Source: Pseudisothecium myosuroides
Taxonomy: Eukaryota; Streptophyta; Bryopsida; Hypnales; Lembophyllaceae
Assembly: GCA_951799445.1 (NCBI GenBank)
Contig: OX637288.1
Location: 32,777,288-32,841,287, forward strand
DNA length: 64,000 bases
Direction: 5' to 3'
The translations under genes were made by a program, and so were the position numbers. The number at the start of each line of letters is the position of its first letter. Position 1 is the first letter of the stretch. Below are positions 15,390-53,726 of this stretch, one piece after another. The notes under the pieces are model-generated. The model worked only from the letters and a program-made list of their open reading frames with translations, searched no databases and was not told the DNA's origin.

Positions 15390-16411
15390 GAGACAAAAAG
15401 GATAGTTTTTGTCAAAAGTAGATGGAAAAGAAGACTCCATTTTCAGCACTGAAACTCTAAATGAAGTTGCTAATAAGAGAATTAAATAACGAAATGGTGA
15501 AAGGGGGCTCAATAGTGGCAAAAAAGTGTTAGATTTTGTTCATATCATGCATATTTTCATGGATCATTGTAATTGCAAGATACACTTGTTGATTTTGTGC
15601 CAAATGGAAATAGTTCTAGGAGGAGTGCAAGTTTTTGGAAGAAAACAATATCTAAACAAAATAATATGTACAAAAAATGAATGCATGTAACTCAAATGGA
15701 TTCCATAATTTCCAAATTCATGTACAATTACCAAGGCTTGATGTGCAATGCATATGAATCCACTTTTTTGAAGTACCAAGCCCTAAGATCAGACAAACCA
15801 AAATGATGACTCAAGTTGATTCTCACTATCAGGGTTGAACTACTTAAGCCTAGCCTATATAAGTACAAAGGTAGTGCCTTGAAGTTATAAATAGATTCAA
15901 CTTCCTGCAATTGATTAGTGCTTTACTTATTTGGGTGACAATTCACTAAGTGCAATTAGAATAAATTGATTGGTGTAACTCAAAGAAATACTACTAGAGG
16001 TCACCTAAATGCGAGAATATCAATCTATAGTCATTGTAACATGGGACATAGGCCATAGTGATACATGTTTAAGATAACATAATGTAACAATTAGTAAAAA
16101 AAAATATCTTTCACTTTTTAAAGACAAAATAAAAGATAATGTATTTTTAAATTAAAGTAAAAGTACAAAACAATTGGGCATAGTGAGGACATATATAAAA
16201 CCTCAAGTAAAGATGAAAAGGATCTCATCTTATCATATCTTGCTATTGAATTTTGGATTTGTATCTCAAATATATTCATCAAAGTGAATATATTTAGAAT
16301 AAGAACCATTTAATTGAAGGTGACCTTATAGTTAGGTGGTTTATAATTTGATATTTGTTTTAATTTACGAGAGAACTTTAGAAGAATACTAGAATAGAGA
16401 TTGTTCTAGTT

Positions 16412-17215
16412 ATGGAGAAAAGTGGTACACCTTTGTCCACACCACTTGACATATATGTTGATGACAAATCAGACCTTCAATCACATCAAGTGGAGTGCCA
16501 CATCTGCATGAAGCCCCCAACGGATCCAATTGCAACATCGTGTGGTCACATCTTTTGTTGGCCATGCATCTACTTGTGGCTTCAAAATGGGCCCAAACCT
16601 TGTCCAATATGTAGAATCACCTTGACAAGAGAGATGAGCATCCTTGCTCTTTATGGATTTGGAACTAGTACAGAGCCAATCGACAATATAGTGAGTGCTC
16701 ATGAGGCAATGATTTCAACGAACGTCATCCCACCTCGTCCACCAAGTCCCAATTGGTTTATTTTTCGGGACTTGCATCCAGTGACGTCTGAAACAAGTAT
16801 AGAACGTTCTATCCAGGATAAAAATTTTGCTACGGATATGGCAAATTGGCTACTTCATCAACTTCACAAAGAGATAGACATAAAGAACAATTTAATAGGA
16901 CAAAGGAACCAAATGGAACAGAGGAACTTTGACTTAATGCAAGAAGCACACGAGAGTGCATTGCCACATTTTGCTGCAGATATGGCAAATTGGCAATTTC
17001 GTCAATTTCGCAAAGAGGGAGACCTAAGGAACAATTTAATGAGACAAAGGAACGAAATGGAATACAAGAACTTTGACTTGATGCAAGAAGCAAAGGAGAG
17101 TGCATTGCAACATTTTGAGGAGATAAACCAAAAGACTCAAGCCATAGCACAATTGGAATTGCAGTTGGCTCGAGCAAATGACTTGTTGCCATTTGGGTGG
17201 AGTGATGGACTATGA
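16412..17215 (+). CDS. RING-finger protein, probable E3 ubiquitin ligase (copy A)
   Basis: An uninterrupted 267-residue frame with a complete C3HC4 RING near its N-terminus: zinc ligands C29, C32, C44, H46, C49, C52, C64 and C67. The spacing and the CGHIFCWPCIYLWL segment are typical of RMA/RNF5/RNF185-type RINGs, whose members pass ubiquitin from an E2 to substrates. RMA proteins carry a C-terminal membrane anchor; none is visible here, so a soluble protein is more likely. After a proline-rich linker (about 106-114) come two near-identical 48-residue units starting DMANW (about 142-189 and 190-237), charged and helix-forming, then a short conserved tail. The partner at 53067-53726 has only one unit. 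Both copies remain open, unlike the neighbouring H2A relics. Substrate and expression are unknown. Confidence 0.75.
   Translation: MEKSGTPLSTPLDIYVDDKSDLQSHQVECHICMKPPTDPIATSCGHIFCWPCIYLWLQNGPKPCPICRITLTREMSILALYGFGTSTEPIDNIVSAHEAMISTNVIPPRPPSPNWFIFRDLHPVTSETSIERSIQDKNFATDMANWLLHQLHKEIDIKNNLIGQRNQMEQRNFDLMQEAHESALPHFAADMANWQFRQFRKEGDLRNNLMRQRNEMEYKNFDLMQEAKESALQHFEEINQKTQAIAQLELQLARANDLLPFGWSDGL
16835..17122 (+). repeat. In-frame tandem duplication of a 144-bp coding unit
   Basis: Two consecutive 144-bp units within the RING gene, each encoding a 48-residue block that starts DMANW and contains QRN, FDLMQEA and ESAL. Phase is kept, so the protein is lengthened, not broken. Copy B of the gene has a single unit, so this is either a gain in A or a loss in B. 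Confidence 0.8.
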
Positions 17216-22167: not shown

Positions 22168-22778
22168 ATGAGTGATCAAGGAAACAAGATGAGTGACCCC
22201 AAGTCAGTTAGGAGTAAATGCAGATTCTGCAAGGGTACAAGTTACATGAAATTAAACTGTGAGAAGAAGGATAAAGAACCTCATTTGGAAGGCAAGAATC
22301 TGGTGGTTTCCGGCAAGGAGGAAAAGAAGTGACCAGTTCCTTTGAAGGATGGTTAACTAGTCAGGAAGGGAGGAAGGAATTTTAGTTGTCAATTCATACT
22401 TGGAAACTCAATTTTGACAGTTCCAGTTCAAAAACCTCGGGGTCAGGCGTTGGAGTGGTGTTAGAAAGTCCTGCAGGAGTAAAAGAAGTCTTCCATCAAG
22501 ATTTAGGCAGGAATTTGACTTGTAACGAATCAAAATATGCTGCGTTAGTTACGGGTCTGGAGATAGCCAAAAGCAAGAAGATTAAAAAATTACAAATACG
22601 CGGGGACTCGAAGTTGGTCTGTAATCAAGTTGCTGGGAACTGGGAGGTGCGTGCAGAAAATCTACGACCATACCACGAAGCTATTCTTCAATTAAAGCAA
22701 GATTTTGAGTCTATTGAGATACGCCATATTCCGAGGATTATGAATCAGGAAGCCGATGAAGCAACCCGCAACGAATAG
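22168..22778 (+). pseudogene. Pre-gag reading frame: zinc knuckle plus RNase H
   Basis: Upstream of gag is a decayed frame beginning MSDQGNK. It carries a CCHC-like knuckle with the histidine changed (C-x2-C-x4-Y-x4-C in CRFCKGTSYMKLNC), then a linker, then a full RNase HI-type domain at 22386-22778. All four acidic residues of the RNase H site are visible: D in NFDSSS, E in CNESKY, D in RGDSKL and D in NQEADE. One frameshift near 22320 and one TAG at 22383-22385 separate knuckle and domain. A second RNase H follows RT at 38674-39198. Plant Tat-lineage elements have a second RNase H, but normally after RT. Here it precedes gag, which is unusual. Confidence 0.75.
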
Positions 22779-22837
22779 GCTAACACCCACAACAAAAAAG
22801 TCTGCACTGAAGGTTTAATTTTCATCTGTTAGTCAAA

Positions 22838-24217
22838 ATGGTGTCTATACCCGTCTTCACTGGGAAAGAGCGTGAAGATCCAGAGAGATTATTACTTCAG
22901 TTTAAAAGAGCATGCATGGCGAATGGCGATAGAACAAAAACCGCATGGCTTGAATTATTGCCAATACATCTCGACGATACTGCATCTTTCTGGTTTGAAC
23001 GTCAAAGTGAAGCGATCACAACTTCATGGGAAGTGTTGATAGCTACGTTAATATCAGAATTCCAAGAAAGAGAGTCATATCAAAGTCTGCTTAGGACTTT
23101 AAGTCTTGTTAAGCAGAAGAACGACGAAAGCGTTCGTCAGTTCAGTGCACGGGTTCGGGAGTTACAGTCTCGTATTCAACGGAGCTTAAACTGTCTGAAC
23201 ACCAACACAGGTGATGCTTTACCACAAAGCCTAGAAAACACGGCATTGAAAATTTAGCTCTGCGAAGTTTCATCAGCGGCCTCAAACCAGCAATCCAAGA
23301 GATTGTTGCATGGAAAGAACCGTCGACATTTGAGGATGCGCTCATACTAGCGCAAAGGAAGGAAATGAATTTAACGAGTATATTATAGTCGCAGATTATC
23401 ACAGCGACAGTTACACCCATAGTATCACAGTTGGTTCAAACGACTCCCCTCACTGCTGAAATAAAGAAGGAAACAATAGTTAAAAGTCCCAAAATAACTC
23501 AGCTTATCTCCAAAATGCACGACTTAAAATTGTTACTATTATAGGGGCAAAGTAATAATAGTCGATCTAAAAGCCCAGCGTCAGAAAATCGCCCGAGTAC
23601 TCCTCAAAGGGTGCAGTTCATTACATGTCTTGGTTGTGGGAAAAGAGGTCACTATAAGAATGACTGTCCCAAAGCTGAAAAGGCTCCAGCACCGACAACT
23701 GTTATTCTTGCAAAAGTAAACTTGCTCCAGTTGGTCGGCGACAGCAGAGTACAAATAGTTGATTCCGAGGTAATGAATACTAATAGAGGTCGACCTAGCA
23801 AAGAGAAACCAGAGGTACTGAGGAGGAACGATACAGAGAAGATTAGCATTGATCGGCACAGAGACAAGCGTCGACGACCAGAGAAAAAAGATAAACTACG
23901 GCAAAGAAAGATTGGAATTAGCGACCTCTTTTTGAGTCGGGGTCAAAGTGAGTACTCGCTATTACAGGATCTGGGCAAGCAAACCACAAATATTACAGTT
24001 GGACAATTAGTTGCAAAATGCCCATCTTTACGAAGAGAACTGTGTCAAGGAATCAATACACGTCGGCACAAATCTACAGTGGAAATTAACGTTGCAGATA
24101 AAGCAAAGGGAGACCTTAAATCTTCGCAAGTGCAAGCCACTATTAATGGTCACAAGGTGGGAGGATGTCTCCTTGATGGTGGCGCAGCAGTGAATATCAT
24201 TTCGTCGTGGTTCATGG
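22838..24217 (+). pseudogene. gag with zinc knuckle, and start of protease
   Basis: Begins MVSIPVFTGKEREDPE and continues as a retrotransposon gag (FWFERQSEAITTSWEVL, LSLVKQKNDESVRQFSARV). The frame is lost at about 23250 and continues in another frame (RSFISGLKPAIQEIV), with stops near 23386 and 23541. A clean CCHC knuckle, CLGCGKRGHYKNDC, lies at about 23623-23664, followed by a basic region. The aspartic protease starts with LLDGGAAVNII near 24170, where DGGA replaces the usual DTGA or DSGA. The frame is then cut at SSWFM by the MULE and resumes at 37130. Confidence 0.85.
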
Positions 24218-24275
24218 GACGATGCTATTTTGCGTGCAGTGAGCGTAGAGCATAGAGCGGTGAGCGTACTTTTGC
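24218..24275. repeat. MULE left terminal inverted repeat
   Basis: GCTATTTTGCGTGC is shared exactly with the complement of the right end (37062-37119). It is followed by repeated GAGCGTAGAGCATAGAGCGG motifs, which also occur in the right subterminal region and are candidate transposase-binding repeats. Confidence 0.75.
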
Positions 24276-24485
24276 GAGCCCCGAGACCTCCAAAGTGGGC
24301 ATTCTCTATAAAAATAAAAGTAGGAGATAAAATCTAAGCAAAACAAAAGTTAAAAATTAAAACTGATCTACAACAGTAAAGCCCTATAGCCTTGAGTGTG
24401 GTCTAATGTGAGATATGATTGACCACAATTTTAGGCAGCACAAGGCGGTTTTAGGGTAAACAAAAATAATTAATTAAATAAATTG
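24276..24485. other. MULE left subterminal region
   Basis: AT-rich, no gene seen, between the left inverted repeat and an 18-bp minisatellite. Confidence 0.4.
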
Positions 24486-24489
24486 AGCA

Positions 24490-24668
24490 GGTACCCTATG
24501 GCCGTGGATATCCAATGGTCGCTGTTTTCCTATGGCTGTGGATACCCAATAGTTGTTGTTATCCTATGGCCATGGATACCCTGTGGCCGTTGTTATCCAA
24601 TGGCCGCAGTTACCCTATATCCGTTGTTATCCAATGGCCGTTCATACCCTATAGCCGTTGATATTGTG
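24490..24668. repeat. 18-bp minisatellite (CCTATGGCCGTTGTTATC-like)
   Basis: About nine or ten degenerate 18-bp units alternating GTGGATAC and GTTGTTAT variants of CC(T/A)ATGGCCGT. Because 18 is a multiple of 3 it stays open in frame, which explains a short spurious reading frame here. It lies in the MULE left arm, about 0.55 kb beyond the stop codon of the cargo gene. Confidence 0.75.
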
Positions 24669-25221
24669 ACGCCACCTGAAAAGTTCCTTAAAATAAACTA
24701 AGGTTTCATTGAATATTATCACACCATTAGTCCAAATAGAACCATTTCATATTCTTCAAAAAACTGCAGCCATGAGTGTGTTTCGAATATTAAAAAAAAA
24801 AAACTGAAAATTATTGAGGATGTAGGGATGGTCGTCAACAGAAACGAAATGTCCTCTGAGAGCGTCCATTCAGAAAAATTATATTGTGAGTACATTCTGC
24901 TGATAGAGCGAACAGACGGCAACAATTTTATGGACAAAGTGAAGATTAAAATCATGAAAAACTTCCACAAATTTTGGAGGGTTCGATTTTTATTGCAGTG
25001 CATGTTAAATAATTCCTCGGTATTAGTGAGCGTAGCCGAAGCCAAAAAGACTTTGATGAATTAATATAATTCAAATGAACGACGGAATTTAATTTTACTC
25101 TGAAAGGATGCTAAGATGAACCATTACATCAGCATATACAGACAATGAACATTACAAATGGAAACACAAGATGTATGTAATGTAATTAGAACTCAAACAA
25201 TAAATCCGAGAGACATAGGAA

Positions 25222-28200
25222 TTATGAAAATGTAAAAGTCGAGGAACTGCCAGAAGATGCTGGTCTTGGTTCCATATCAACGTCTGCCTCATCATCAATA
25301 AAACGACAAACACGTCTAGGAAAACTTCTATCACTACGCGTGGGGGTTGAAGAAGATTCTGCCGCTTGCAACATAGCGACGTCTGCATCCCACGACGCCA
25401 TAAAGTAGTCTTTGGCCGGAGATTGGAGTAGAGGGATCACTGTGAGCCAAACAAGTTTGTATAAGTAAATTGTAGGCCATGAACAGAAGACTGAAAGATA
25501 ATAGGATCAAGCGCGAGACTTACTTACTGAATCTGTTCTTCTTAGTGATCTGCCGAATAGGGACGTCCAGTGCAATCTCTGGTGGAGTGTCGGTAGCGGG
25601 AAGTTCAATTCGAGCTGGAGCTTCGACCTGGTGGAACTGCTGCAACTTAGCCCTGAAGATGATGACGTCATCTTCGAGGGCCGCAATGTGTCGTCCAATA
25701 CCTCTACAAGCTCGAATAGAATTACCTGGAAGTAGATGAAAGAATTTAGTTTAGGACATGACCAAGGAGAACGAAAGAAAAATTCATCACAAGAGAAAGC
25801 ACTACTCACCGAGAGAAGCAAATGCATCGAGGATGATGGCCCCCGGCTTGGTAAAAGCCTCGATCAGCATTTGAAGGAAAACAGGATCCTTCTCAAGGGC
25901 GCCTCTCCACGGAACAGATCCATTCATGGATTGAGAGGCCGCGGAAGTGAAATTAAATAACACATCGGATTGAGCAACTCCCATACCGAACTCCGCAAGT
26001 GATTCATCGGCCGCTATCGTGAATTTGCTAGCATCCATGGCGCGGTGTATGAAGAGTTGAATCCGGAATCCTCTGCTCTGTAAATGAAGATTGCGGCGAA
26101 ATTCAATTAGGCCAGGCAAAATGTAAATTACAATCCATTGACTCGAATCCAGTGATTCCAAAAATTGATTCAAAACAATACTAACCTTATTTTTTAAGTT
26201 GTAATACGATGCAGAAGGCAGGTCATTAATTCCCCACCACTCTCGATGTAGAATGAAGCTGTAGCCGTTTGCATACGACAGCACATCTGTCCGGATCCAT
26301 GGAACATCTGGGACAAACAATAGAATCGCACCCGCCCCGTGAAGAAAATGTTCTACAAACTTGAAAACACTTTCAGTCTGCTGCTCAGAGTACTCATTCC
26401 AGGCTGGGACATCTCCAGGGTTCACTGAAATGGAAGGAACCCAGAGGCCATCTTTAAGATTGCCAAGAATCAAGTCAAAGCCACTGTGCGGACAAGCCTT
26501 ATTCAAAGCCTTGGCACCGTCTTCTTTCTTGACCTGGACATTAAAAAGGATGGAATTGATTATGTGAGAAAGGCATAACACAAACGCATTGAGAATCCAA
26601 TTTGCTCAAAAAACAAAACGACTATCCCAACAACACAATGTAGACAATGACGAAGAATCCCCAAGTGCCGACATTGGCAATGGCTCTAAACCGTGGAATG
26701 TCAAGGCATCATAACAACAACAACCCATAACTCAGACAAGCAAATAACGGACAATGCATAAGGGGAACTGGTGATTGAAGAGACAAACCTTGAGAACAAA
26801 CTTGTTGACAGTGTCGAGGCAAGTGTGCACGTTCGGAAGAGCCTCCATAATTTGGAACAGGCTGGAATTTTGAACACAGACTAAGGATTGAAAAAAAGAT
26901 GCTGATGATAAGGCTCCTTTGCTTGTGGTGACTATGTTCTTCAGCTTTTGCGTAGCAAATGACAGCGGGCTCGATAGCGCATGAAGAGCAGGCAAAAGAG
27001 GATTCTGAGCACCACTTGGACTAGGCTGCGGAGGAGGGGGGTGAACCACATCCAGCACTTCCATGTCCGTATCCACGTCCGGCAATGGACGCTCTGATGG
27101 TCCAGCAGCTTTCCTGGCACTAACAGGGGCCACTGCATCACTCTCCTGAGTGGCCGCCGCATCGGAGGTTGCCTTCTTCTTTGCTTCTTCTTCGGCCTTC
27201 CTCTTTGAGCCCCTTGTCTTCTTTGCAGGACCCTCCGGTGGCGCTGTCTCATGAACCGTCTTCAACCCGGATAAATCTGGTTGCACCTTGTTCCTTAAAT
27301 CGATCTCGAAGGGAGGAGGATTGTTCAGAGGGCAGTCAATGTACCACCGACAAACTTCCCAGTGCTCCTTCTTCCACTTCCTGGCGATCTCATCCGATAT
27401 CATGCAATTGTCGGCACGTCTGTCCAAGTAGCTTGGGAAGAACGACGGTGACTTCGACGTGGCGTTGCGTGCGTGCAGCACAAACTTGAAATATCGATAC
27501 AGAACCCTGGCCACAGCCTGCTCCAGACCGACTTGAAACTCTGGAGGATGATTCTTGTGAACTCCTTTGCCACTAAACTCATGGGAGAATGCATTATCCC
27601 AAAGCTGGATACGATTCTGCTCCACATAATCCGCAATGCTAGGAATTGGACTTTCACCAGGTGGGAGATAATTGATCGTAACATCCAGCTCAGAGAGAGC
27701 TGCATCGAATAGTTCCTGCACAGAACTAGCCAACTGTAACAAGGAGTCATAATTAACTCTGACGAGTCCATAATTGAATTCAAAAAAAAAAAAAGGTAAA
27801 AGAAGTTACCTGTGCCCACCAGGTTGCCTTGTGAAGCCACTCAGGAAAAGCATGATCAGGAAACTTGGTCTTTGGGAACCTCATAGCTTCCCGAAGCAAG
27901 GGAGGTTTGTTCCACCGCTCCAGCCACTTGACTTTCACTGCCAGATCCATGACGGAGGTTGAAAGATACCACAACTTCTCCTGCAACATCTCTGGATCGT
28001 CCTCTCGATTCTCATAGTGAATGCAAACTTGCTCCATGAATTGCGGTGTTTGCCTCGGATCAGCAATAGGAAGCTGTTTCTTCACATTAGATGACATATC
28101 CTTCTTCACTTTGTCGACAGCCTTCCCAATGGCGTCATACAGCTTCCCAGTAGTCCATTCTTTCGATTTCTCCGGATACTTCTCTTTGAATCTCCTAGTC

Positions 28201-29712
28201 GCATGAGCTACTGCATCACCTAGCTCTTGCTGCAAGACAATGAATACGCAATTAGGCTTCTTATCTGAGGTTAAAGCTGACTCCCAGAATCGACACAGCA
28301 AGTGCCGATATCGGCACTCTAATTCTTCAGTCGAAAAGCAAACAACAGAGGTCATAACAATCAACTCCATACAAAATCATGAAAGTACATAACACCCCCG
28401 CACCTGATAGAGAAAGCTAATTAGCCCGTCAAGCGTCAAGGTGTACTAAGTTCGAGTCTTTGTTTTCTGCTTCTTCTCGGCGTCAGCTAGCTCCTCTTTG
28501 GTAACTAGATTCTCGAAGTAGGACAGGGGTTGACCAGCTATATTCTGAAGCCTGTACAGCTTGTGAACCAGGTTTAACTTCACGTGACATGTTTGGTTTC
28601 TCCTGTTTCAGCCAATCAAAGTTAGAACTGAAAAGGACATACTACTCGCAATAAAACACTATGAGGAATGGTCTCTGCCTCGTAAATTACCAGTTCACTT
28701 GGTGCAGCGTGGTGAGTAGTGGCCCGATCTGGCCCTCAACCTCCAAGACAATAGATTCAACTGTGTAATGCCATGACGGATCATCCCCGTGGTCTCTGTT
28801 GATTATCGGTAGCCAGGCAGCCAACCGATGGTTGCCATCCCAGACGAAGAACATTTTCCCCGAGAATTGCTTCCACAAGTCTTCCTTCTCTAGCTCCTTC
28901 TTGAAGTTGTTGTTTGCATCAACCCATAACAAACTCCAAGAGGCCACCTCCTTGTCCGTCACATCTCGTGTTTTGACCTCGTTGTCTTGCAAGGCGACGT
29001 AGAAGACACCATGGCCGTCCATATATCCGGTACTTACAAAATGTGAGCCTAGTGCCATGACGTCGTTCTTCAGGTATGGCCGAACCGCAGCCAAAGCTTT
29101 CATACGACAGAGTGGGATGTTCAGTTTTGACTTCTCCCTTGGCTTGAAACGGAGCTTGTCCAACACAATGTTCGTATTGGCTGACTCCTGCACGACCATC
29201 TTGTCCATTTCCTTTCCAAGCTCCTCTGCCATCATCTCCGTCGTTTCTTTTCTAGCAATCTGTGCGTCCTGGGAAGTCTCGACATCCTCGTTACCCGCTT
29301 CTTCTGCAAATAGAACATCGTTAGCAAGTAGCCAGACAATCACCCAAACTTTCCTAAACCATATTTGAGAATGTCAGGCTGTCAAGAAGACGCACCTGAC
29401 TTGTGAATTTTTGGCTGCGACGAAGACTGTCCCCCGTTTGTTCTCCCAGGATCAATCAAATTATCCGTCTCACCTGCAGAATTTCAGAACAAGACTTAAA
29501 ATTGAGAAGGAAAAACAAAAGTGGCAGCAGCAGAGGGTAGCAGAGAGTGGAATAAGCACTCCCTCTAGGGGAGTGTTGGAAGTGCTTGTGTGTTCGTGGT
29601 TACAGATTTGTGACTTACCTCGTTCTGTTTGCGCGGTTTGGGAAGGGTTGCCGCCTTCCGACTCCACGCACATCTTCTCCGCGCACTCCGTGGTCTCAGA
29701 CGTCTCCGCCAT
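25222..29712 (-). CDS. MULE cargo gene: ParB-like plus DNA-methyltransferase-like protein (10 exons)
   Basis: Model, minus strand: exons 29712-29619, 29473-29396, 29303-28691, 28602-28404, 28324-27810, 27733-26789, 26533-26186, 26077-25810, 25725-25528 and 25439-25222, about 1,150 residues. All introns are GT-AG, and phase is kept at every join but one. Exon 3 carries a ParB/sulfiredoxin-like signature, VWDGNHRLAAWLP. Exons 4-6 are helical, with a basic KKTRGSKRK stretch that may be a nuclear signal. Exons 7-9 resemble the permuted N4/N6 DNA methyltransferases: FDLIL, then GAILLF, and finally IILDAFASLGNSIRACRGIGRH, like the AdoMet motif I region. The DPPY position reads NLKD and FxGxG reads FASLG, so catalysis is doubtful. 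Exon 4 has an in-frame TAG (28446-28448) and its join to exon 5 does not keep phase: either decay or a model error. ParB-MTase fusions are common in phages; function here is unknown. Confidence 0.6.
28301..28318. repeat. 18-bp perfect palindrome
   Basis: AGTGCCGATATCGGCACT is self-complementary. It lies just inside or at the start of exon 5 of the cargo gene. Its 16-bp core TGCCGATATCGGCACT recurs at 34639-34654 inside the same MULE, in an intron of the transposase gene. Confidence 0.7.
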
Positions 29713-30039
29713 CTTCACGGGTGCTGCAGCCAGAGAACATTCCCAAGTTCCTCAAGTCATTGCGAATTCAGACAAGGAGCAGATTGAGAAACCCTAAACC
29801 AGTTGTCCAGGGTGTGACACAGGGGAGCAAAATCGGAGTGGAAGACCTAATCACTTAGAAAACTGTTAGTCGTGGGAAACCCTGCACGGATCAAAACCCT
29901 AAATCCTAGCAAAAAATTAGCGAATGGAGAGAACCGAGGTCATTGAGATTGAGCAGAGTGGTGCAAGCGGAGAAAATCGAAACCTTAATCCCACAACGGC
30001 CCTGAGCAGGCAAGTCGGGGAGAGCATGAACGGCGATCA

Positions 30040-30236
30040 AGCTCGGGGGACACAGCTCGGGGCGACCAGTTTGGGGCGACCAGTTCGGGGCAAGCAGCTC
30101 GAGGAGACCAACTCGGGGCGACTAGCTCGGGGAGACCAGCTTGGGGCGAATAGCTCGGGGAGACCAGCTCGAGGCGACTAGGTCGTTGCGAGCAGCTCGG
30201 GGCGACAAGCTCGGGGCAACCAAGCTCGGGGCGACA
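30040..30236. repeat. 14-bp minisatellite (AGCTCGGGGCGACC-like)
   Basis: About fourteen consecutive GC-rich units on AGCTCGGGGCGACC, with single changes such as GAGACC or CGACTA. It sits about 330 bp upstream of the cargo-gene ATG. It stays open in several frames, but nothing suggests it is translated. Confidence 0.85.
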
Positions 30237-30764
30237 GAGCAAGGAACCAACAGAGTGAATGGGGAAAGGATACAGATTGGGAACCAGCACGCTGCGAATG
30301 GGGAAAGGTGCATGGAGCGAAGTGGGAGAACTGGGCTAAACAGCGATCCAACTGGGCGAATCAAACGAGGAATCAATTGGGAGACACCAGAATTCAAGGG
30401 AAAGGGCTAAACCAGCACAGTTTACTAACAAAGCTAATCCCTAAATGAGCAAGCCAAAATAGCCAACCAGCACGCAAAGCAACTTAGCTTAACCACAAAA
30501 AATAACCGGACTAGATCCTAAACGAGCAAGCGAACATAGCCAATGAAATCGTAAACCAACGGTGCCAAAACCAGCAAGCAAGCCAAAGGAACAAACCAAC
30601 ACTTACTGGAGCGAAACCAGCATGAAAGACCTAGTCAATCTGAAGTTGCGAAACCAATAATTTGGCAGCAAAACGATGCAAAACCAGCTAGGAGATACTA
30701 GCAAGAAGTCACCAGACAGGGCACTAAACCACCAGAAAGAAGATTTTTAGAGGGGGAGGAACTA

Positions 30765-30922
30765 GCACGGAGCCAGTGGAACAAAACTAGCACGGAGCCA
30801 ACGGAGCGAAACTAGCACGGAGCCAATGGAGCGAAACAGCATCGAGCTAATGGAGCAAAACAGCATTGAGCTAATGGAGCAAAACTAGCATGCAAGCTAA
30901 AGGAGAGAAATCGCACGCAAGC
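30765..30922. repeat. ~25-bp minisatellite (GCACGGAGCCAATGGAGCGA-like)
   Basis: Six to seven degenerate units of about 25 bp, each with GCACGGAGCCAATGGAGC followed by AAAACTA, drifting to GCATTGAGCTAATGG in later units. Confidence 0.8.
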
Positions 30923-31330
30923 CATACCGCAAGCCAACGTGAGATGCCAGTGTCAATCGCGGATGAAGCCCACCATTTTACAGCCTTCACCCGAGTAGCT
31001 GCAATCGTTTCAGTTGGACCGCCGAACTCAAGCTCTCAATCCCGACGTCCCTCAATAAACAGATTACTCAACTCTATCTGGGATCAAACTACGAAGCACA
31101 CCTTCAAAGACACGCTGCTTCTCTTTGCAATGTAGTAAAGCCTCTAGCGACTCTACTTGCAATGATTTCGCAATTACATGATAATGACTGCACAGAATTC
31201 ATCATTATGTGAACCTGAGATGATGGTTTACACCCTCTACTCAATGCACAAGGTACCTGTTTCATAATCTTCATGAACCCTAACAATGATGTTTTGAGAC
31301 AAACAAATAATTTAGTTGTCACATTACCTC

Positions 31331-31643
31331 GCTCTGAGGTGGTCTCTCTACTTGGCCCGTTTTCGCGATCACCAGCACTCTCATCAGGTGTATTCTCGCT
31401 TTCGCTGCTTGTTGGGGTGGTATTCTCTGGAAGTCCTCGCTGCATGGTGTCCTCTACAATATTTGGAGGAGAAACCTCCACTCCGCTAACTGACGGTTCT
31501 CCGCAAACAAATTCCAGTACTCTAACAGTCTCTCCTGCATCTGCTATCCTAGCATTTGATCGCAGTTCCCTCATGATTCTAGACCTCTTCAGGCGCTTCG
31601 GGGTTGTAAAATACAAAGCCTTTCGTCTCTGTCTCTTTGGCAT
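31331..31643 (-). other. Possible alternative first exon with a nuclear signal
   Basis: A minus-strand frame opens MPKRQRRKALYFTTPKRLK, with two basic clusters typical of nuclear signals, and continues as an acidic serine-rich stretch. It meets a donor (GAGCGAG then GTAATG) in the same phase as exon 1 of the cargo gene, which ends CAGAACGAG then GTAAGT. It could therefore splice onto exon 2 at 29473 as an alternative start. This is inference from splice phase only. Confidence 0.35.
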
Positions 31644-32484
31644 TCTAAAGGGTGCAGGAATTCAATGTCATTTCCACTCCACGCAATACTAACTACTAGT
31701 CCTATTTATGTATCATTATAGCTATTTACGTATTATTTCGAAAGCTTCAGCCATAATGACAATATTTCACAACCCAACGGAGTTGTAACCCTTTTAAGCA
31801 TACCAACAATGACAAATGATTACAGTTTTAAAGCTTAACTGAGAAACACTAATGGCATCATTTTATTCTGTTAGACCGACGATGATGAATGACAGGTCAA
31901 TCCATACTAACCCATTGCACCGTCATAACTCGTTCAACATGGCGCTCTTTGTCGCGGAGGAAGTTTCCATTCTGCGGAATTCATCACTCCTACAATTTCC
32001 GGGTTTCAGTATACTGACACTTTATTTGACGGTTGTCCAAAGGCTATTCATCGAATTCTAGAAATACTACTTGCGAACCTCTAAGCTCCTAATTACCTCA
32101 GGAGCATAAAAAATAAAGTAAGGGTCGGCTCTTCCGACCTATCATACTAATATTAATTTGCAATCTAATTCATTCATTATAAGTCGTACAACATCCAAAA
32201 TTCATCCTTGACAGTGCACGACTCCGCTGTTCTTCACTATAATTGGGAATGGATACTAATTGAAAAAAAAATGTACCACGAAGTTTGGTTCAGTATTGTG
32301 TTGCCCTAATGAACTACCACATGGCGTCGACGTCTTTAGTTAAGAAATGGGGACCCTTTATTGACGTACTACTCGGTCTCTACCTCACTTATTCAAGGAA
32401 CACAATACCTAGATTTTACCTGGTCCTGGTTTTGCACTGAGCTTGCATGTTCGTTGTTGGGTCTCCTCAAGAGTTAGGGTTGTC

Positions 32485-35400
32485 ATGGCTACCTTGGAAA
32501 ATGCCATCTCCAATGCGGTTGTCATTCGAGGAGATGGACCAATGGTGCCTATTTCTTTCGCCGTGGGGGAGGATGGCTTCGCTAAAGTTACTGGTTCTCG
32601 TCTTGCGTCGTGGTTTCAGATTATGGAGGGTACTTTGCATTTGGATTTGGACGTCGTTAATCCAATCTCGAGGTAGGTCTCTCACACGGTAGCACAGATG
32701 TCATGTGACTCTCTCATCGATGAGGTTTGGTCTTTGTCACCCGGAAACTACCGCGTGTATAGAATGAAAATAAGTATGGTTGATTGTACTCCTAGACGAT
32801 CTTCTGCAACATCAGAGGTCACCCCAATGCTTCGGAATGTTAAATTAGAGCATGTTGATGGTCCAGTCCTCGTTCTCAGTGATGATTCAGATAGTGAATG
32901 CATCCTTCCCGCGCCTGAATTTACTACTTCCGACCTTGCAGAACACCCGGTCGTTCGTGCACATTCCGTTCTCGTTCGTCGTTCAGGCCCATCCACTTCT
33001 AAGCCTCCCTTGCCGCCTGCTGAGAGTATTGTCCATTGCCTACGCCAGTTGAATACCAACAAAGGGCTAGGTCAGTTCTTAGCAAGTTAGATTACAATTC
33101 AATTCCCATACAGAGGATAGAATGTCTGCCACCAGATTTTAATGGTGATATTTTTTTTGAGCTCCCTCCAATGGGGAAGTATCTGCTATCCACGAAGGCC
33201 GGGCACCTGCAGGGCATGGATAAAAAGGATGACGGACACGCTTGGACTCGAACGGCTACTACGCATATCCAATCAGCATCTCAACTTTCATTCAGACTGT
33301 CCAATTGCTTGGGACATCTACGTTGCGAGAATACGGATTGCGAATATGGAAGTCGGCCCAATCGTTTGTCTCCGTCAAACGAAACTGAGTGGGAAGGTCT
33401 TGCCTCCTCTGCCTTCATTCCCGGATCTGATCCACCATCTAACTCTATTGTCGTCTGTGCCCTCTGCCTTGTGAAGCCTACTTGCGTAGATAGTTGTCCT
33501 GCAAAGATATATTATGTTTACGGCCCAAGTCACATGACCCGTGCATGCATCCATCTTGGATTCCATGCACATCCCGTGAAACAAGGAAATTGTCAAGAAT
33601 CAGCTGCCAAACTCCGGAGTCTTATTGGAAAACATGTAGAAAGGGCTCCATCAGCGACAAACTCTGCCATTGTCCTGGAGGCGACGAAGGAGTACCTTGG
33701 GAATTACTTCTATGCCCGGAAGGTGTGCCTCAGAAGACTCTAGCCATTGACGAACTACTCCCGGTCTTGGACAAATTCAAACAAATGTCATCTCCAAGTA
33801 TTCGGAACAAGGTAACCACTTTCCAATACCTCCGTCGTTTTGGAGTCCTAGATAGCATCACCAAACTGAGAGGGTCAAGCAAATGGGCCTTCATCCAAGA
33901 GAACAGGTTTCCAGGACAAGGAGCGGACTCTGACAAGGTCTTCATCTTCAAAATGGCAGAACTGGGCTCCGGAAGTGGGATCGACCTGGTCAAGCGTATG
34001 CAACCTGGAGGGGACTTGGAAAACGCGTAGATGATGTTCGACCATGTCAAACGGGTAAAGTCTTGGACCACAATGGCCTGTCACGTCTATGACTCCACAT
34101 ACTGCCGCGTCATGACTATTGCGGTTTGCGATATGCAATCTGAAGATGTGGCAGCTCAACAAGTGTTCTGGAAGAATCTGAATGCTGTGTCTTCTAGGCT
34201 TGGTGTTACTAATCCAAATTTCAAAGGGTTCATGGCAAACAGTGCCCAGGCAAACTGGAATGCTGTACGTGTTGTATATGGTTCTGGTGACCCAACAATC
34301 CCCATGGTCAATCGTGAAAGGACTTGCCTTTTCCACTAGACCCAATCACTGGAAAAACACACCAAGGCAGATATCAGAGCAGACCTGCAAGATCAACATC
34401 GTCGCCTCTGTAAACAATACAAGAACTCTGTATCATTGGAGGAGGCTCAGAGTAGGTACTTGGCCATCCGTGCTTGGTGGTTATCATTTGGAGCTTCAAC
34501 TGATGAAGGACTCCCCCGACTCAATTTATGGCTCGCATTCTGGCATTTTCGATACCGCCAGTGGGGAGGATTCATGGAACTGGTAAGCGTCATTTTCAGT
34601 TGGTTTTCCGCTTCATGTCGTCCACCTTGCAATTGCAATGCCGATATCGGCACTACTCCTTGGTAGTGCAGTTCTTGCATCTCTTCCTCCCTAGTCACTT
34701 AATGTTCTGTAGTCTTGGTCCTCGTTTCAACACTCATCTTAGAGGACTGCATGCAGGACCTTTCACCAACCAAATTGGCCGAGATGCCGTCGTGTAATTT
34801 GGCGGAGTCGGTCCACAACAAGTGGTTGCAACAGTCCGGCAAAAGAGGAAATGATCTGTACGTTGCTTCCGTCGATGATATGGTCAGGGCATTCATGCAG
34901 GTTGTTGCCTACTACCAATTCCTGAAGGGTGGAAAGCCAAGTACTGGTCCGCGGAAAGAAGAACTACGTCTTCGTATAGCCCAACGCACTGCTCAACGCT
35001 CCGGAAATTTGAAGGTTCTTCATGCCGCCCTCGCCAATATGCCTGGTGCTGACATCTTCTGCACACGTGACCCGCATCTGGAAGGGGAAGAAGTTTTTGT
35101 TTCCTTGAAGCGAAAGGCAGATCTCCCCCCAGGATCAGAATTCGACTCGCACCGCCCTGACAAGATCAATGTCTCCCGCCCGAGGCGCAAGGCACAACAG
35201 CTCAATCCGGTGATTGTTGATCTCACCGCCGAGGACCCACCAGCAGATCTCGAACTTAGCCAAAGAGAAGGTACTACTCCCACACTACAGTCACCATTGA
35301 CTCACTCTCCGGCAAAGCATGTCAAATCAGTGGAGGAGACTCTGTGCGATGAGCGGCAGTGGCATATTGCAAGACTCCCGAAGACATCCGCAAAAGCTTG

Positions 35401-36205
35401 CTTTGCTCTACAGGCCAAGACCAAAAAGAAATGTGTGGCAAAGATTGTGCAGGACAATCAAAGTACAGCTGCCCCAACTTACACCGGAATGATGGACAAT
35501 TACAAAAAGGTCAGATTGGAGAACATGCAGTTCTTCTTCTGCAATGATGACATCAATCGCTGTATCAATGGAACTCAACGGAAATGGGTACTCTCTAAAC
35601 CTGTCGTCCCTGATATTTGGCCTGTTAAGGTGGGCACAAACTTGACAAGGAAAGAGATTCTAAGTCTCCAAAACGCCGGGTTCAACCTCATGGAGCGCGT
35701 GAAGCTGTCCCCTCGAAAGTTGTTTGGGGAAGGCATTTCTGCAAACCTGGGCGACTATCCTCCTCCTCTAAATCCTTCAGATCACCCCACCAAGCGATAC
35801 GGGAAGAACATTCGGAGGAACCCTGCGGCTCCAACAACGAAGCACCACAACAACTGCGCTTCTGCTCTGTCCATTGTCGGGGAGATCTGCAGTATTCTAA
35901 TGGTTCCTCCTCCAGCTCTCGGCTGCATTGTTACATTAGAGTCCAGAAATATTTCTAAGGTCTCCAGGTATTTACTGACGATTGGGCAATTCCCAAGCTG
36001 CGACTGCCCATCGTTCAAAGACATGTCACAGAAGTCACTTGGCAAGCAAGGAGCATGGACGTACTGTAAGCACCTGTACTACATATTCTCTATTGTTTGT
36101 GGGCTTGATCCGGAGGTAAATATCTTTATGCATGCTCCTAGTTTCAGCTGGAATGAGATAAAACAGGTTCTACAGATTCTGCTACTAAAACACTACGATG
36201 CATAG
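32485..36205 (+). pseudogene. MULE transposase with SWIM zinc finger, decayed
   Basis: Coding remnants run through the whole interval. A Cys/His-rich part (about 33300-33580) is followed by an RNase H-fold region and a C-terminal part. In the fold, YDSTY near 34088 fits the first catalytic aspartate; MANSAQANWNAV near 34232 stands where the second aspartate should be but has N; ERTCLFH follows; and NLAESVHNKW near 34795 may hold the catalytic glutamate. CDC plus CKH at about 36000-36075 form the CxC...CxH SWIM finger typical of MULE transposases. Damage: TAG at 32674, frame changes near 33075 and 33725, TAG at 34028 and at 34337. An intron probably starts at 34583 (CTG then GTAAGC). It would bind the terminal repeats and cut and paste the element, but this copy cannot. 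Confidence 0.75.
34639..34654. repeat. Second copy of the TGCCGATATCGGCA palindrome
   Basis: TGCCGATATCGGCACT matches 16 of the 18 bases of the perfect palindrome at 28301-28318. It lies in the presumed intron of the transposase gene. Confidence 0.65.
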
Positions 36206-36847
36206 TGAGCATGAATAGTCCTGTTATTGCAATGTGATCCTCTTTCCTACTTTAAAGAGAAGGCGGTGAGACTTGAAGGGCCACCGCCAATGTTCCTGAA
36301 CGCAGCTGTTGTTGTTGTCTGCTTGCTCCAAAATCAAACCCTATAGAAGTTCCAGGAGTATTTTGCAGTCATCCTCTCAATGCATGACATAAGTTTGTAC
36401 CCTAAACCCTAAGCGTCTCTCTCATATCCAAGCCTTCTTGGTTTTCTGAATCCCTAAATCCATTTCCGTTGTCGAGGCCGATTGCGGCTGTCTTCCGAGT
36501 GTTTCGGAATCACCATGAACTCTTCCTTAACCACCTCTCCGCACACTAAATTGTTTGCGTAAGCCTTCTAAACTCTAAACATAAGCTACACCACTTTAAC
36601 CACTCCCTAAACCCTGTACCACCACTATAACCGCTCTTCCGCACTTCTCCGCGCCCATTCTACAACATGTACATCCCCTAAATCTTGCAATCCCCTAAAC
36701 AATACCTCCTCATCCACTCTTCTTCTCGCTTCGATCCACAACCATAGATATCATATCTTCTCACACCCGAAACCCTTATCATCACGGTTATAGGACCCTG
36801 TGACCAATATTTGCAACTTCCATCTTCTAGACGGTACATGCACTGAC
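36206..36847. other. MULE right arm, non-coding
   Basis: No gene seen after the transposase stop. It contains several telomere-like AAACCCTA phrases (36400-36420, 36610) and C-rich, short-intron-like sequence. Confidence 0.4.
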
Positions 36848-36932
36848 AAAATAAAACTCTTCTCCACCATATTTCTGCAACCTACTCCACGGTCATAGGT
36901 TGCAGTAATATGGTGGAGAGGAGTTTTATTTT
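36848..36932. repeat. Inverted repeat (hairpin) in MULE right arm
   Basis: The arms AAAATAAAACTCTTCTCCAC (from 36848) and its near-complement ending at 36932 pair over about 36 bp with few mismatches, leaving a loop of about 12 bp. It could be a tiny foldback insertion or a structured subterminal element. Confidence 0.7.
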
Positions 36933-37047
36933 GGAATACTCCGTGGTCATAAGTCCATCATTATTTTAAATTTTAGGAGTATTCACACTTAAAATGTTCT
37001 ATAACTTTTACTTTATCGCCTGTTTCTAAAAAATAAATAACTTCTAC

Positions 37048-37119
37048 CGCTCTACGCTTGCAATTCTATGCTCTACGCTCTACGCTCGCATCTCTACGCA
37101 CGCAAAATAGCAATCCCCA
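37048..37119. repeat. MULE right terminal inverted repeat
   Basis: It ends GCACGCAAAATAGCAATCCC, the complement of the left terminus with a small gap, preceded by repeated CTCTACGCT motifs. It is followed by the TGGTTCATGG target duplication at 37120-37129. Confidence 0.75.
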
Positions 37120-37125
37120 TGGTTC

Positions 37126-38673
37126 ATGGAAGCAGCTGAATTAATACCAAACAAATTGTCAACACTCCAACTCAGAGTCACAGACCAAAGGTGTGTGAGG
37201 TCATTAGGCCTGATCAACCAAGTACCTGTAATGGTGAATGGAGTGACAGTAAAGGTTGATTTTCATGTCTTGGATATATCGACAGGCAAAGGAGGATATC
37301 CAATGATTCTAGGCTGACCCTGGTTGCGACAAGTGCACACCGTTAATTATTGGGAGAAAGGTAAAATGAAAATCGGATCAACTCTTAATCGTGTTAGTAT
37401 CCAGGTTGTGCCTGATCCTTATTCAAGCTCTTCAGAAGGAACATTAGAGGACGACATTACAAATGCTATCGAAGAGTCCTCCTGGGGATCGGATTTATCC
37501 AACAGCGACAAATCGGGCGACACTGAGTTAGAATTGTATGCTGTGGACGTGCTCACACAAGTGGTGGGTTATTCCATGCAACATCTCAAAGATACTGAGG
37601 TCGTTCCCTCGAGAAAGGAAGAAATCTTGAGCAAAGTCAAATTTGGGCCTACTTTGTCTTCATCAGAACATACTGAACTAGAGGCACTGGTTACCGAGTT
37701 TTCGGATCTGTTTGTGTCCAGGCATTGCAATCTCCTAGCGATTACTTTGGAGGAACATAAAATAGAGTTGATACTAGAGGCCAAACCGGTACGAACCAGG
37801 CAAAAGCGTATGGCACCTGAAAAAATGAGCGTGCTGAGAGCAGAACTGGACCGATTATTAGAAGGTGGTATCATTACAGAAGTGAAAAACACAGAGTGGG
37901 TCTCGCCAGTTGTGATCGTGCTCAAAAAGGGAGGAAAGTGGCGAGTATGTGTGAATTATAAAGCATTGAATAAGTTTACGAAGAAGGATCGGCAACCATT
38001 ACCTCACATCAACGAACTTTTAGACGAGGTGGTTGGTCATCAAATGTTTACTTTTTGCAATGGTTACGCCGGATACCACCAAATAAAGGTACACAAAGAT
38101 AGTGTTTTATACACTACTTTTACTACTCTATGGGGTATCTTTGCTTATTTAAGGATGCCTTTTGGCTTATGCAACGCCGGAGGCACATTTCAAAGATTGC
38201 AGCTAAAAATTTTTGGTCCTTATATCGGCCAATTCATTTGGGTCTATCTCGACAATTTTGCTGTGTACGGTAATCATATTGGTCATGTACAACAAGTGAG
38301 AGCTGCATTCCAGAAATTGCATGAACATGGGTGTTCATTATCCCCCGAGAAATGCAGGATCGGATTTGAAGAAGGTCCATTTCTCGGTCACATAGTGTTC
38401 AACGGTGGCATGTGCGTGGATCCCGACAAAGTGAAACGTATCAAAGAAATGACTAAGCCTATCTCGCATGAACAAGTTGCTAAACTATGGGGAACAACAA
38501 TTTATCACAACCGGTTCATACCAAATTTGGCAGGCATTGGACGTCCTATAAGTGCCCTGACCAGTAAGACTGTTCCTTTCATCTGGAGCGACCAATGTGA
38601 GCAAGCTTTCACGTATATTAAAGAAAGATTGGCAAGTGATCCAATAGTTAGAAATCCCATATGGGACAAGTAG
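37126..38673 (+). pseudogene. Ty3/gypsy protease end and reverse transcriptase
   Basis: It resumes the protease (MEAAELIPNKLSTLQLRV) exactly where the MULE cut it. A TGA at 37315-37317, probably from CGA, breaks the frame before PWLRQV. The RT domain runs about 37790-38660: WVSPVVIVLKKGGKWRVCVN, YHQIKVH, MPFGLCNAGGTFQR. The catalytic YxDD reads YLDN (38245-38256), so the second aspartate is lost. A TAG at 38671 follows. The RT would copy element RNA into DNA; this copy cannot. Confidence 0.9.
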
Positions 38674-47366: not shown

Positions 47367-48133
47367 TTAAATTACAAGAAGCGATCTCTCTGAGGCCAAT
47401 GGGGAGCAATTCCACAGCAGTATAGAAGATTCAAAGATTGAGTTTGAAGATTTTACACAACTATGACTCCTTCTACACATGTACTTGCGGTTGTTAAGTT
47501 GCTCCAAAATAGTTAATCTACCCTTTCGATGAGGAATGATGATGTATTGCAGCAAAAGGTACCTCTTATCTCCAAGAAAATAAGATGGAATCCCTCATCC
47601 AAAATTGGAAGACCTACAATCAAATTGTTGTTTCTAGCTCTTTGATTATACAAACCAAACCTTTTGAGCACCCTCACGTCATTCAAGCTTCTAGGTAGTC
47701 CGACAAAAACATCAAGGAATTGTTTTTTCTTGTTCACAATTGCTTGATTTACAAGATTGTAGCCATTTGTTTTGAAATAGTAAAAGTCTTCTGCAAAGCA
47801 AGCTGTCTTTTCGGAATTTGATATCTTACTTTTGAATATATATGGTTCTAAGATACCTGCTAATTGGAATGGGGACTCTTTTGTCAGTTTGAAATTTGCA
47901 ATCCACCTCAAGTCATCATACTTGGTCCATAGAAAGACATAGAACCAAGTTGTTGACCTTAATTTAACCCAAAATCCCAATTTGTCATTCAACAGTGTAT
48001 CCACATTACTAATGCAAAAATCGTGGAGAATACAAGACACAAGAAGATCCATCTCCTGGAGTGTATTGTGAACTTGATGGAAAGATGTAATCTCCATTGG
48101 ATTGTCTCCTCTTCCTTGCTCTGGTGATTCCAT
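47367..48133 (-). pseudogene. PIF/Harbinger transposase relic (DDE_Tnp_4-like)
   Basis: Minus-strand frames read phrases of the HARBI1/PIF nuclease: KKQFLDVFVGLPRSLNDVRV, matching the conserved GxPGSxNDxRVL block, then DEG near 47600. After a frame change at about 47545 comes YIIIPHRKGRLTILEQLNNR. The N-terminal part reads YDDLRWIANFKLTKESPFQL. Internal order is disturbed and there are frameshifts, so the gene is dead. In active elements the enzyme cuts at TTA/TAA targets together with a Myb-like partner; no partner is visible here. Confidence 0.7.
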
Positions 48134-49192
48134 GCCAAGGTAAATGTTTTACAGTAGCAAAATCAACACCAACAAGAAGCCCACAATCTCCTCCAGTTCT
48201 ATAATCATTTTAGGATTTCAAGTTGAGACCAAAGTTTGTATCTGCCACAACTTGCTTGAGGGCTATAAAAATTCTATCATTTTCACGAATATGATCAATA
48301 TCATGATCATATAAAATAAGTTACATAAACAAGAAAACAAGCAATCAATCATGCTTCCTTGAGTCAATTTTTCATATGAGCAATTTAGAATCTTTTTACG
48401 TTGCTACTTAATTATTGTCAAAAATGCATGCTGCAAATGGAATCAAGAAAAGAAAGAAATCTAGGTTAAAATAGCATCAAAAGAACTCTTCATGAATTAT
48501 ATTTGCACTATTGCTCCCATAGCATGAACTCTTAACATGAACTAGTTAAATGAGGGTTGCTATTATGTAAGCATAGGAGTGTGAGTCCATGAGCCTAGAA
48601 TACTACACACCTATATTATAGGTGTATATACTATAGAACCCGTCTATGATTATAGGGTATATATATTACAAATACCCATATTATAGGTGTTTATGATATA
48701 TACACCTTCTATAGTGTGTGGTATCTATATTATAGATACCTATATTGTAGGCTCAATGCTCACAAGCTCGCATTCTTGGGCTCACATACTAGCACCGTTG
48801 CTAGTTAAATATGAACATTTAACATGAAGGAGTTTGGTCACATGGATGAATCAAATATACTAAATTCTTTCATAAGTGAGCTAGCAACCTTCTTGCAATT
48901 GAATCAAACAAATGAAATCAGATGCAAATGAAATCAGATGCAAATGAAATGAATGAAACTCCAATATCAACCTCCCTTTCTTTAGCCTTTTTTTTGGGTC
49001 AGTATCCTAACCACCTCAAATTATGCAAATAACTATCAACCTTCTTGATTCTTTCAAGACAAAGACTCACAGCATCCAAAATTCAAAGCCAACACTAATG
49101 ATTCACGAGGGAAAAAGAGAATTTGCAAAAACAATTTAACAAAAACCCACAAAATTTGATTGCAAGCAAATATATTAACAAAAATGTGGTAG
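48134..49192. other. Non-coding with a second GCTATTATGTAAGC-ended MITE
   Basis: At 48556-48792 lies an inverted-repeat element with ends GTTGCTATTATGTAAGC and GGGCTCACATACTAGCAC, related to the one at 46248-46490 and full of internal TATA-type palindromes. The rest is AT-rich with no gene. Confidence 0.45.
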
Positions 49193-52198: not shown

Positions 52199-53066
52199 TT
52201 ACCAAGGCTTGATGTGCAATGCATATGAATCCACTTTTTTGAAGTACCAAGCCCTAAGGTCAAGCAAACCATCTGGTATGACTCAAATTGATTCTCACTA
52301 CCAAGGTTGAACTACTTAAGTCTAGCCTACATAAGTACAAAACTAGGGCCTTGAAGCCATAAACAAATTCAACTTCCAAGTACAAATGATTAGTGCTTTA
52401 CTTATTTGGGTGATAAGTCATTGAGCAGTGCAATTAGAGTAAGTTTCTTTTTTCTTGAGTAAATTGAGGATCAAGAAGCATTGGACTATGTTTGCATATC
52501 TAGCTTATTTTTCTCTAGATATTCATCAAAATGATTGGCATTGCTTTTTATCTCTACCTCATCATTTCTTTCTATAGTGAGTTCATTACATAGACATACT
52601 ACTTCTAAAAAAGTATTGACCAAAGTGTTAAGTCTCAAGTTTTTAAAATTTAGTCAAAATAGTTCAAATAAGCACTACTAGAGGTCATCTAAATGCAAGA
52701 ATATCAATCTATTGTTATTGCAACATGGGACATAGGCCATAGTGATACATGTTGAAGATAAGATATTGTAACAATTAGTATCTTTCACTTTTTTAAGACA
52801 AAATAAAAGATAATGTATTTTTAGATTAAAGTAAAAGTACAAGGCATTGAGGACATATATAAAACCTTTAGTAATGATGAAAAAGGGTCATCTTCTCATA
52901 TCTTTTGCTATTGAATTTTGGATTAATATTTCAAATATATTCATTAAAGTGAATAATTTTAGAATAAGAGTTGTTTAATTGAAGGTGACCTTAGTTATAA
53001 TTGGGTGGTTTATAATTTGATATTTGTTTAAATTTATAAGAAAACTTTAGAAGAATACTACTAGTT

Positions 53067-53726
53067 ATGGAGAAAAGTAGTGTACCATTGTGCACACCAC
53101 TTGACATATATGTTGATGACAAATCAAACCTTTATCCACATCTAATAGAGTGCCACATTTGCATGAAGCCCCCAACTGATCCCATTGCAACCTCGTGTGG
53201 TCATATATTTTGTTGGCCATGCATCTACTTGTGGCTTCAAAATGGGCCCAAACCTTGTCCAATATGTAGAATCACCTTGATAAGAGAGATGAACATCCTT
53301 GCTCTTTATGGATTTGGAACTAATACAGAGCAAACTGACAACATAGTGAATGACAATGAGGCAATGACTCCAATTAACGTCATCCCACCTCGTCCACCAA
53401 GTCCCAATTGGTTCATTTTTCGGGACTTGTATCGGATGACGTCTGAAACAAATATAGAACATTTGAGACAGGATAGAAATCTCGCTATGGATATGGCAAA
53501 TTGGCAATTTTGTCATTTTCGCAAAGAAAGAGAACTAAAAAACAATATAATAAGACAAAGGAACCAAGTGGAACAAAGGAATGTTGGCTTGATGCAAGAA
53601 GCACACGAGAAGGCATTGCAACATTTCGAGGAGATAAACCAAAAGACTCAAGCCATAGTAAAGTTGGAACTACAATTGGCTCGAGCAAATGACTTGTTGC
53701 CATTTGGGTGGAGTGATGGACTATGA
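53067..53726 (+). CDS. RING-finger protein, probable E3 ubiquitin ligase (copy B)
   Basis: A 219-residue open frame aligned end to end with 16412-17215. All eight C3HC4 zinc ligands are kept (CHICMKPP ... CGHIFCWPC ... CPIC), as are the proline-rich PPRPPSPNW linker and the LLPFGWSDGL tail. Only one DMANW helical unit is present, so it is 48 residues shorter. Many differences from copy A are substitutions with the frame kept, which suggests some constraint, though short age could also explain it. There is no membrane segment, so a cytosolic or nuclear ligase is likelier than an RMA-type anchored one. The promoter-side sequence is also duplicated, so both may share regulation. Confidence 0.75.
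   Translation: MEKSSVPLCTPLDIYVDDKSNLYPHLIECHICMKPPTDPIATSCGHIFCWPCIYLWLQNGPKPCPICRITLIREMNILALYGFGTNTEQTDNIVNDNEAMTPINVIPPRPPSPNWFIFRDLYRMTSETNIEHLRQDRNLAMDMANWQFCHFRKERELKNNIIRQRNQVEQRNVGLMQEAHEKALQHFEEINQKTQAIVKLELQLARANDLLPFGWSDGL

Follow-up and report, generated by a model that had tools for sequence, protein, structure and literature searches.

The window, the whole 64,000-nucleotide stretch of DNA analysed here, contains a large DNA transposon whose accessory gene encodes a protein shown by computation to join an N-terminal ParB/sulfiredoxin (Srx)-fold domain, with its DGNHR pocket kept, to a C-terminal homologue of beta-class N6/N4 methyltransferases. Its domain content, the selection acting on it and its co-travel with the transposase show that it is an element gene. 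The reading that we favour, with confidence about evenly divided, is that it belongs to the regular gene content of MULE-like DNA transposons forming a large family, and is not a one-off captured host gene, its product acting in trans on element DNA and its methyltransferase-like domain more likely being non-catalytic.

The transposon, its borders and its class

We delimited the transposon by its terminal inverted repeats (TIRs) and a 9-bp target duplication. Its features outside the accessory gene are as follows.

24217-37119: transposon, within a gypsy retroelement
24208..24216: left target-site duplication, 9 bp, TGGTTCATG
24217..24279, plus strand: left TIR (repeat match, blastn border, ends of other copies)
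24495..24664: tandem array of 17/34-bp units in non-coding element DNA, where blastn alignments break or overlap in several copies
30040..30235: tandem array of 14-bp units, upstream of the accessory gene, where blastn alignments break or overlap in many copies
30760..30890: 25-bp tandem array between the accessory gene and the transposase
33024..36205, plus strand: transposase-like reading frames, with a DDE-like part (33494-34666) and a C-terminal part (34703-36205)
37056..37119, minus strand: right TIR (repeat match, ends of other copies)
37120..37128: right target-site duplication, 9 bp, perfect

The two TIRs pair over 57 nt, 24223-24279 with 37056-37112, at 74% complementarity, in keeping with the inverted repeats of the initial annotation, whose target duplication of 9-10 bp can be set at 9 bp. 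Perfect duplications of this length, differing in sequence, flank the same ends in all four further copies checked at both ends, so the element spans 24217 to 37119. The tenth duplicated base, in TGGTTCATGG, which occurs in the window at two places only (24208-24217 and 37120-37129), is most likely a coincidence. Removing the element and joining its flanks restored the gypsy frame across 103 open codons. Of 20 fetched copies, 16 had a blastn alignment starting no more than 5 bp from 24217, while that of the other four (L030-L033, 77-89% identity) started further inside.

The element is thus a mobile unit with MULE-type ends, having both the 9-bp target duplication and the long TIRs of that class. 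By eye, its transposase frames carry DDE, CxxH and CxC...CxH patterns, which may be of the MULE transposase type. Pfam returned no entry for a SWIM domain in 34703-36202 at E≤10 and none for a MULE domain in the DDE region at E≤1, and the element is assigned to MULEs by its TIRs, its 9-bp duplications and these motif patterns. The transposase segment 34031-34336 has at least 150 genomic relatives (best 150 of 512 candidates). Two minor features lie within the element: a 38-nt inverted repeat near its right end (36847-36933; 95% complementary, 11 nt between the arms), and a further long minus-strand reading frame (31104-31661) that had no Pfam match and is possibly another accessory gene.

The accessory gene and its genome-wide family

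The accessory gene runs on the minus strand from 29712 to 25222, with ten exons and nine introns, all GT-AG, encoding 1126 aa.

29619..29712, minus strand: exon 1
29396..29473, minus strand: exon 2
28691..29303, minus strand: exon 3, predicted ParB/sulfiredoxin-fold domain with database relatives, DGNHRLAAW at 28839-28813
28404..28602, minus strand: exon 4, with an in-frame TAG (28448-28446) in the window copy
27810..28229, minus strand: exon 5
26789..27733, minus strand: exon 6
26186..26533, minus strand: exon 7, putative methyltransferase N-terminal half, with the altered motif IV inside GNLKDGLW (26464-26441)
25810..26077, minus strand: exon 8, putative methyltransferase motif X and start of motif I
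25528..25725, minus strand: exon 9, remainder of putative motif I and the part that follows
25222..25439, minus strand: exon 10, with the stop

We transferred this exon model to the fetched copies, which make up 20 of the 35 matches besides the window's own. Two are open from start to stop, with 1126 residues and every intron border intact, settling both the exon model and its reading as a single polypeptide; one of the two reads DGNRR in place of DGNHR. The remaining 18 have at least one stop, and several also carry insertions, shifted frames or changed splice sites; L016, which is among these 18, was read in part, without exons 1-5. A two-gene model, in which the exon 4 stop is a true end, is ruled out by the two copies that continue in frame. 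Database proteins retain exons independently (exon 7 in P0036, exon 4 in P0040). The ten-exon minus-strand gene first proposed is therefore upheld, with the addition of the exon 4 TAG, which the initial annotation had not recorded. Given this codon and the in-frame TAGs at 34028 and 34337 in its transposase frame, the window copy looks dead.

Searching the 388-Mb genome with the last part of the gene gave 36 DNA matches, 17 at ≥96% identity (the window's own included); the family is thus large and has moved recently. At the protein level, exon 3 had at least 151 genomic matches (150 of 427 candidates scored), reaching down to 31% identity, of which 150 were used, and exon 7 had at least 150 (best 150 of 273 candidates). 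A transposase lay within 15 kb of 77 of the 150 ParB matches listed, 75 of these in the window's divergent layout, compared with a mean of 1.9 and a maximum of 8 in 1000 trials of random placement. Exon 7 lay within 8 kb of 92 of the 150, in 91 cases downstream on the same strand at a median of 2.7 kb (random placement: mean 1.0, maximum 8). Both fractions are lower bounds among the matches listed, and both simulations took contig 5 as 33 Mb, its actual length being 34.4 Mb, with hardly any effect. The proximity of exon 7 rules out a cargo of ParB alone; both domains are found in one protein, encoded opposite the transposase. On whether the cargo always travels with SWIM transposases, a question raised in the initial annotation, the answer is mixed. 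The association with the transposase recurs in many copies, but among the matches listed 73 of 150 ParB matches lacked a transposase at a distance of up to 15 kb, 58 of 150 lacked exon 7 at up to 8 kb, and the SWIM assignment was unconfirmed by Pfam.

The gene often adjoins the transposase, as would be expected of a transposition cofactor that uses its ParB-like domain to nick or bridge the DNA of the element. Some ParB-type domains are reported to act as nucleases, and the ParB-methylase Bce_0392 has been described (PMC5512222) as having non-specific nicking activity. Since 74 of the 150 transposase matches listed lack a listed ParB match up to 15 kb away, we regard this role, proposed by analogy, as unlikely.

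Another family of the accessory gene comprises 29 exon 7 matches at 88-100% identity, 26 of them without stops, so this family too was probably mobile recently. Two of its members, C6:437644 and C6:469050, match exactly and are separated by about 31 kb, in opposite orientations; they may be an inverted duplication and not two insertions.

Between subfamilies, the gene is under purifying selection. With stop-bearing codons and exons of changed length excluded, dN/dS was 0.22-0.26 for the whole gene (five comparisons). Exon 3 gave 0.12-0.18 in four comparisons and exons 7-9 gave 0.23-0.36 in five, one of them on 63 codons only; for L014 against L031 the three values were 0.25, 0.12 and 0.31. Among closer copies, which show few differences, exons 7-9 gave 0.42-0.86, and the tails of the gene are under weaker constraint. 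These values bear on the possibility that a host gene was captured and is carried passively, as in Pack-MULEs. Pieces of host genes are common in MULEs, according to the available text of PMC6446971, but the number and divergence of the genomic exon 3 matches, the frequent retention of the layout and the selection between subfamilies make passive carriage very improbable.

Two predicted domains and an altered active site

The DGNHRLAAW segment read in the initial annotation lies in exon 3, and DGxHR-type pocket signatures mark the ParB/sulfiredoxin superfamily. The fold suggested on that basis was put to a structure check, in which the AlphaFold model of exon 3 (pLDDT 83.9) had ParB proteins as its closest solved folds, supporting a predicted ParB/sulfiredoxin fold. 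Exon 3 found 40 relatives among 5.8 billion proteins, the motif letters G, N, H and R each being present in 39 of 40 aligned letters. Queries of the same 5.8 billion proteins with the full-length protein and with residues 780-1060 gave zero matches; that exon 3 alone finds relatives where the full-length protein finds none suggests that the collection holds them exon by exon. Pattern scans found no relative of exon 3, exon 6, exon 7 or the transposase in viral contigs and none of exon 3 in prokaryote contigs, and tblastn of phage records with P0008, a relative of exon 3, gave no match.

The second phrase originally picked out, likened to methyltransferase motif I, is interrupted by the intron between exons 8 and 9. 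Single-sequence evidence for a methyltransferase here is modest but one-sided: Pfam N6_N4_Mtase matched at 0.011, all five PHROGs families listed were methyltransferases (best 1.4e-4), as were both NCBIfam matches (best 1.5e-5, far below the curated cut-offs). Only a four-row alignment with divergent genomic relatives covered both methyltransferase halves. It matched CcrM at 1.4e-5 over profile positions 42-220; against the PDB, 10 of 12 rows were DNA methyltransferases; and all four of its rows matched Pfam N6_N4_Mtase (best 2e-8; the window row, at 0.002, below the curated cut-off). Comparison by hhalign with five phage proteins gave 98.4% over 197 columns, with motif IV aligned to DPPY, and the C-terminal half scored well against an HMM built from five phage methyltransferases, none of the 1387 shuffles listed reaching its score; because the five phage proteins had been picked as matches of the query, both results are biased towards it. 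With the same HMM, exon 7 did not stand out from shuffles, of which 266 of 1604 listed equalled its score, and the corresponding part of P0036 did little better (60 of 1830 listed). An AlphaFold model of 25529-26533, built from two rows with introns read through, had a pLDDT of 36.8. The profile searches support homology of exons 7-9 to beta-class N6/N4 DNA methyltransferases, in line with the resemblance pointed out in the initial annotation.

The catalytic motif IV of beta-class N6/N4 methyltransferases is (D/N/S)PP(Y/F/W). We read this place in 16 sequences, namely the window, two divergent loci and thirteen further loci hand-picked from exon 7 match lists and not all independent families, and found the DPPY-type motif in none. 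In the window's subfamily it is GDLKDG in 17 of 19 readable copies and GNLKDG, as in the window, in 2 of 19. The two divergent loci have ADIPEN and LDIPEG, and the thirteen further loci DVPE, DMPE, DIPE, DIPD, DVPK, EYPD, DLKS, DVLE or DCQE. D-x-P-E is found in 8 of the 16 sequences; the third-place proline is kept in 11 and the aromatic place is E or D in 14. The downstream WN is kept in 15; in the remaining sequence a stop codon stands where the W would be. Motif I reads ASLGNS or AATGSS/ST, as against AGSGTT. Standard amino-methyltransferase activity is accordingly unlikely, judging from these residues.

The initial annotation had suggested that the cargo may mark element DNA, and marking by standard N6/N4 methylation is disfavoured by the absence of DPPY from every sequence read. 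A more active version would have the ParB-like part bind the element and the methyltransferase write N6mA or N4mC through a changed active site. Such self-modification was proposed for proteins of this kind by the authors of the Ectocarpus study (PMC12477816, as far as its accessible text goes), and would be consistent with the homology to CcrM-type enzymes and with the finding that motif IV begins with an acidic residue in 15 of 16 sequences. The missing catalytic motif, the acidic residue at the aromatic place and the altered motif I count against it, and we think it improbable.

Function and relation to known systems

Under the reading that we favour, the protein would work in trans as an accessory factor. 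Its ParB-type domain would load it onto the element's own DNA, with the non-coding tandem arrays as possible sites, and the loaded protein would aid the element's escape from silencing or its assembly for transposition. Since all the sequences read have an altered catalytic motif, a standard amino-methylating enzyme is a less likely role for the methyltransferase-like domain than a non-catalytic reader of DNA or SAM, or a partner-dependent subunit. We infer binding to the element's own DNA from the ParB-type domain and by analogy with VANC, and the arrays as its putative binding sites are a conjecture by the same analogy.

That analogy can be taken further. The protein might bind tandem motifs of its own element and remove host cytosine methylation or its effect, as a VANC-like anti-silencing factor. 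VANC, of Arabidopsis VANDAL MULEs, binds short motifs, often in tandem repeats of the non-coding parts of VANDAL elements (PMC5735166, in excerpt). The element here has three non-coding arrays, and copies align poorly at two of them (24495..24664 and 30040..30235), breaks and overlaps that suggest length variation. The arrays are, however, without clear enrichment: 3 of the window's 12 array places fall within the element, which makes up 20% of the window's length. We view this possibility as tentative, though a better candidate than the marking and cofactor roles above. VANC is likewise a MULE accessory gene that binds non-coding motifs of its own elements, but the excerpted text of PMC5735166 mentions no ParB or methyltransferase domain in it, whereas both are predicted here.

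Closest in description is Sola1-1_Ec32 of Ectocarpus (2025, PMC12477816), reported to encode a 1104-aa ParB-like and N4/N6 methyltransferase accessory protein opposite its Sola1 transposase; examples from green and red algae are cited in the same paper (Iyer 2011; Petroll 2025). In each case a single protein of similar length (1104 vs 1126 aa) holds both domains, and its gene faces the transposase from the other strand of a large DNA transposon. The Ectocarpus element is a Sola1 in a brown alga, whereas ours is MULE-like and in a land plant, and the catalytic motif is changed in the accessory protein here. With the Sola1 protein and the algal cases in print, this kind of protein is already known. 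Literature searches, judged mainly from the papers they listed, found no ParB-methyltransferase protein in a MULE or a land plant. The original statement that no MULE with such a protein was known agrees with these searches but overstates the novelty, the protein type itself being in print for algal transposons. What is new is the MULE-like element, the land plant host, the scale and the changed motif.

ParB-methylase fusions of phages and plasmids, such as Bce_0392 and polyvalent proteins (PMC5512222), also pair a ParB-type with an adenine-methylase-type domain in mobile elements; here the gene is a ten-exon eukaryotic one and its motif IV is not canonical. With CcrM-type beta-class N6 adenine methyltransferases the predicted domain shares the motif order and a profile match across both halves, but DPPY is replaced and motif I altered.

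More broadly, and still with considerable doubt, ParB-type proteins that load onto DNA may form a large family under selection in plant MULE-like elements, with their methyltransferase domain converted into a new module of D-x-P-E type. Such a protein would serve as an anti-silencing or transposition factor that reads and does not write DNA modification, or would perform other SAM chemistry. Should the protein shield or activate the element that encodes it, plant transposons would have a second anti-silencing route besides VANC, assembled from domains characteristic of phages and prokaryotes, and the ParB-methyltransferase theme would extend over several transposon superfamilies. The missing DPPY under purifying selection offers a clean, testable contrast to the published self-modification idea.

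Elsewhere in the window, all on the plus strand unless stated, an RNase H-like frame (22386-22778) lies directly upstream of a gag-like frame (22811-23257) of the gypsy element as judged by eye, an unusual order if real. A minus-strand frame at 47513-48148 resembles a Harbinger-type transposase by eye, with no Pfam match at E 0.01. Two similar RING-finger genes (16382-17215 and 53040-53726) lie about 37 kb apart, the first with an internal 144-bp duplication. A full-length gene of the plant-typical DUF3537 family occupies 61475-62974 (E 9e-138).
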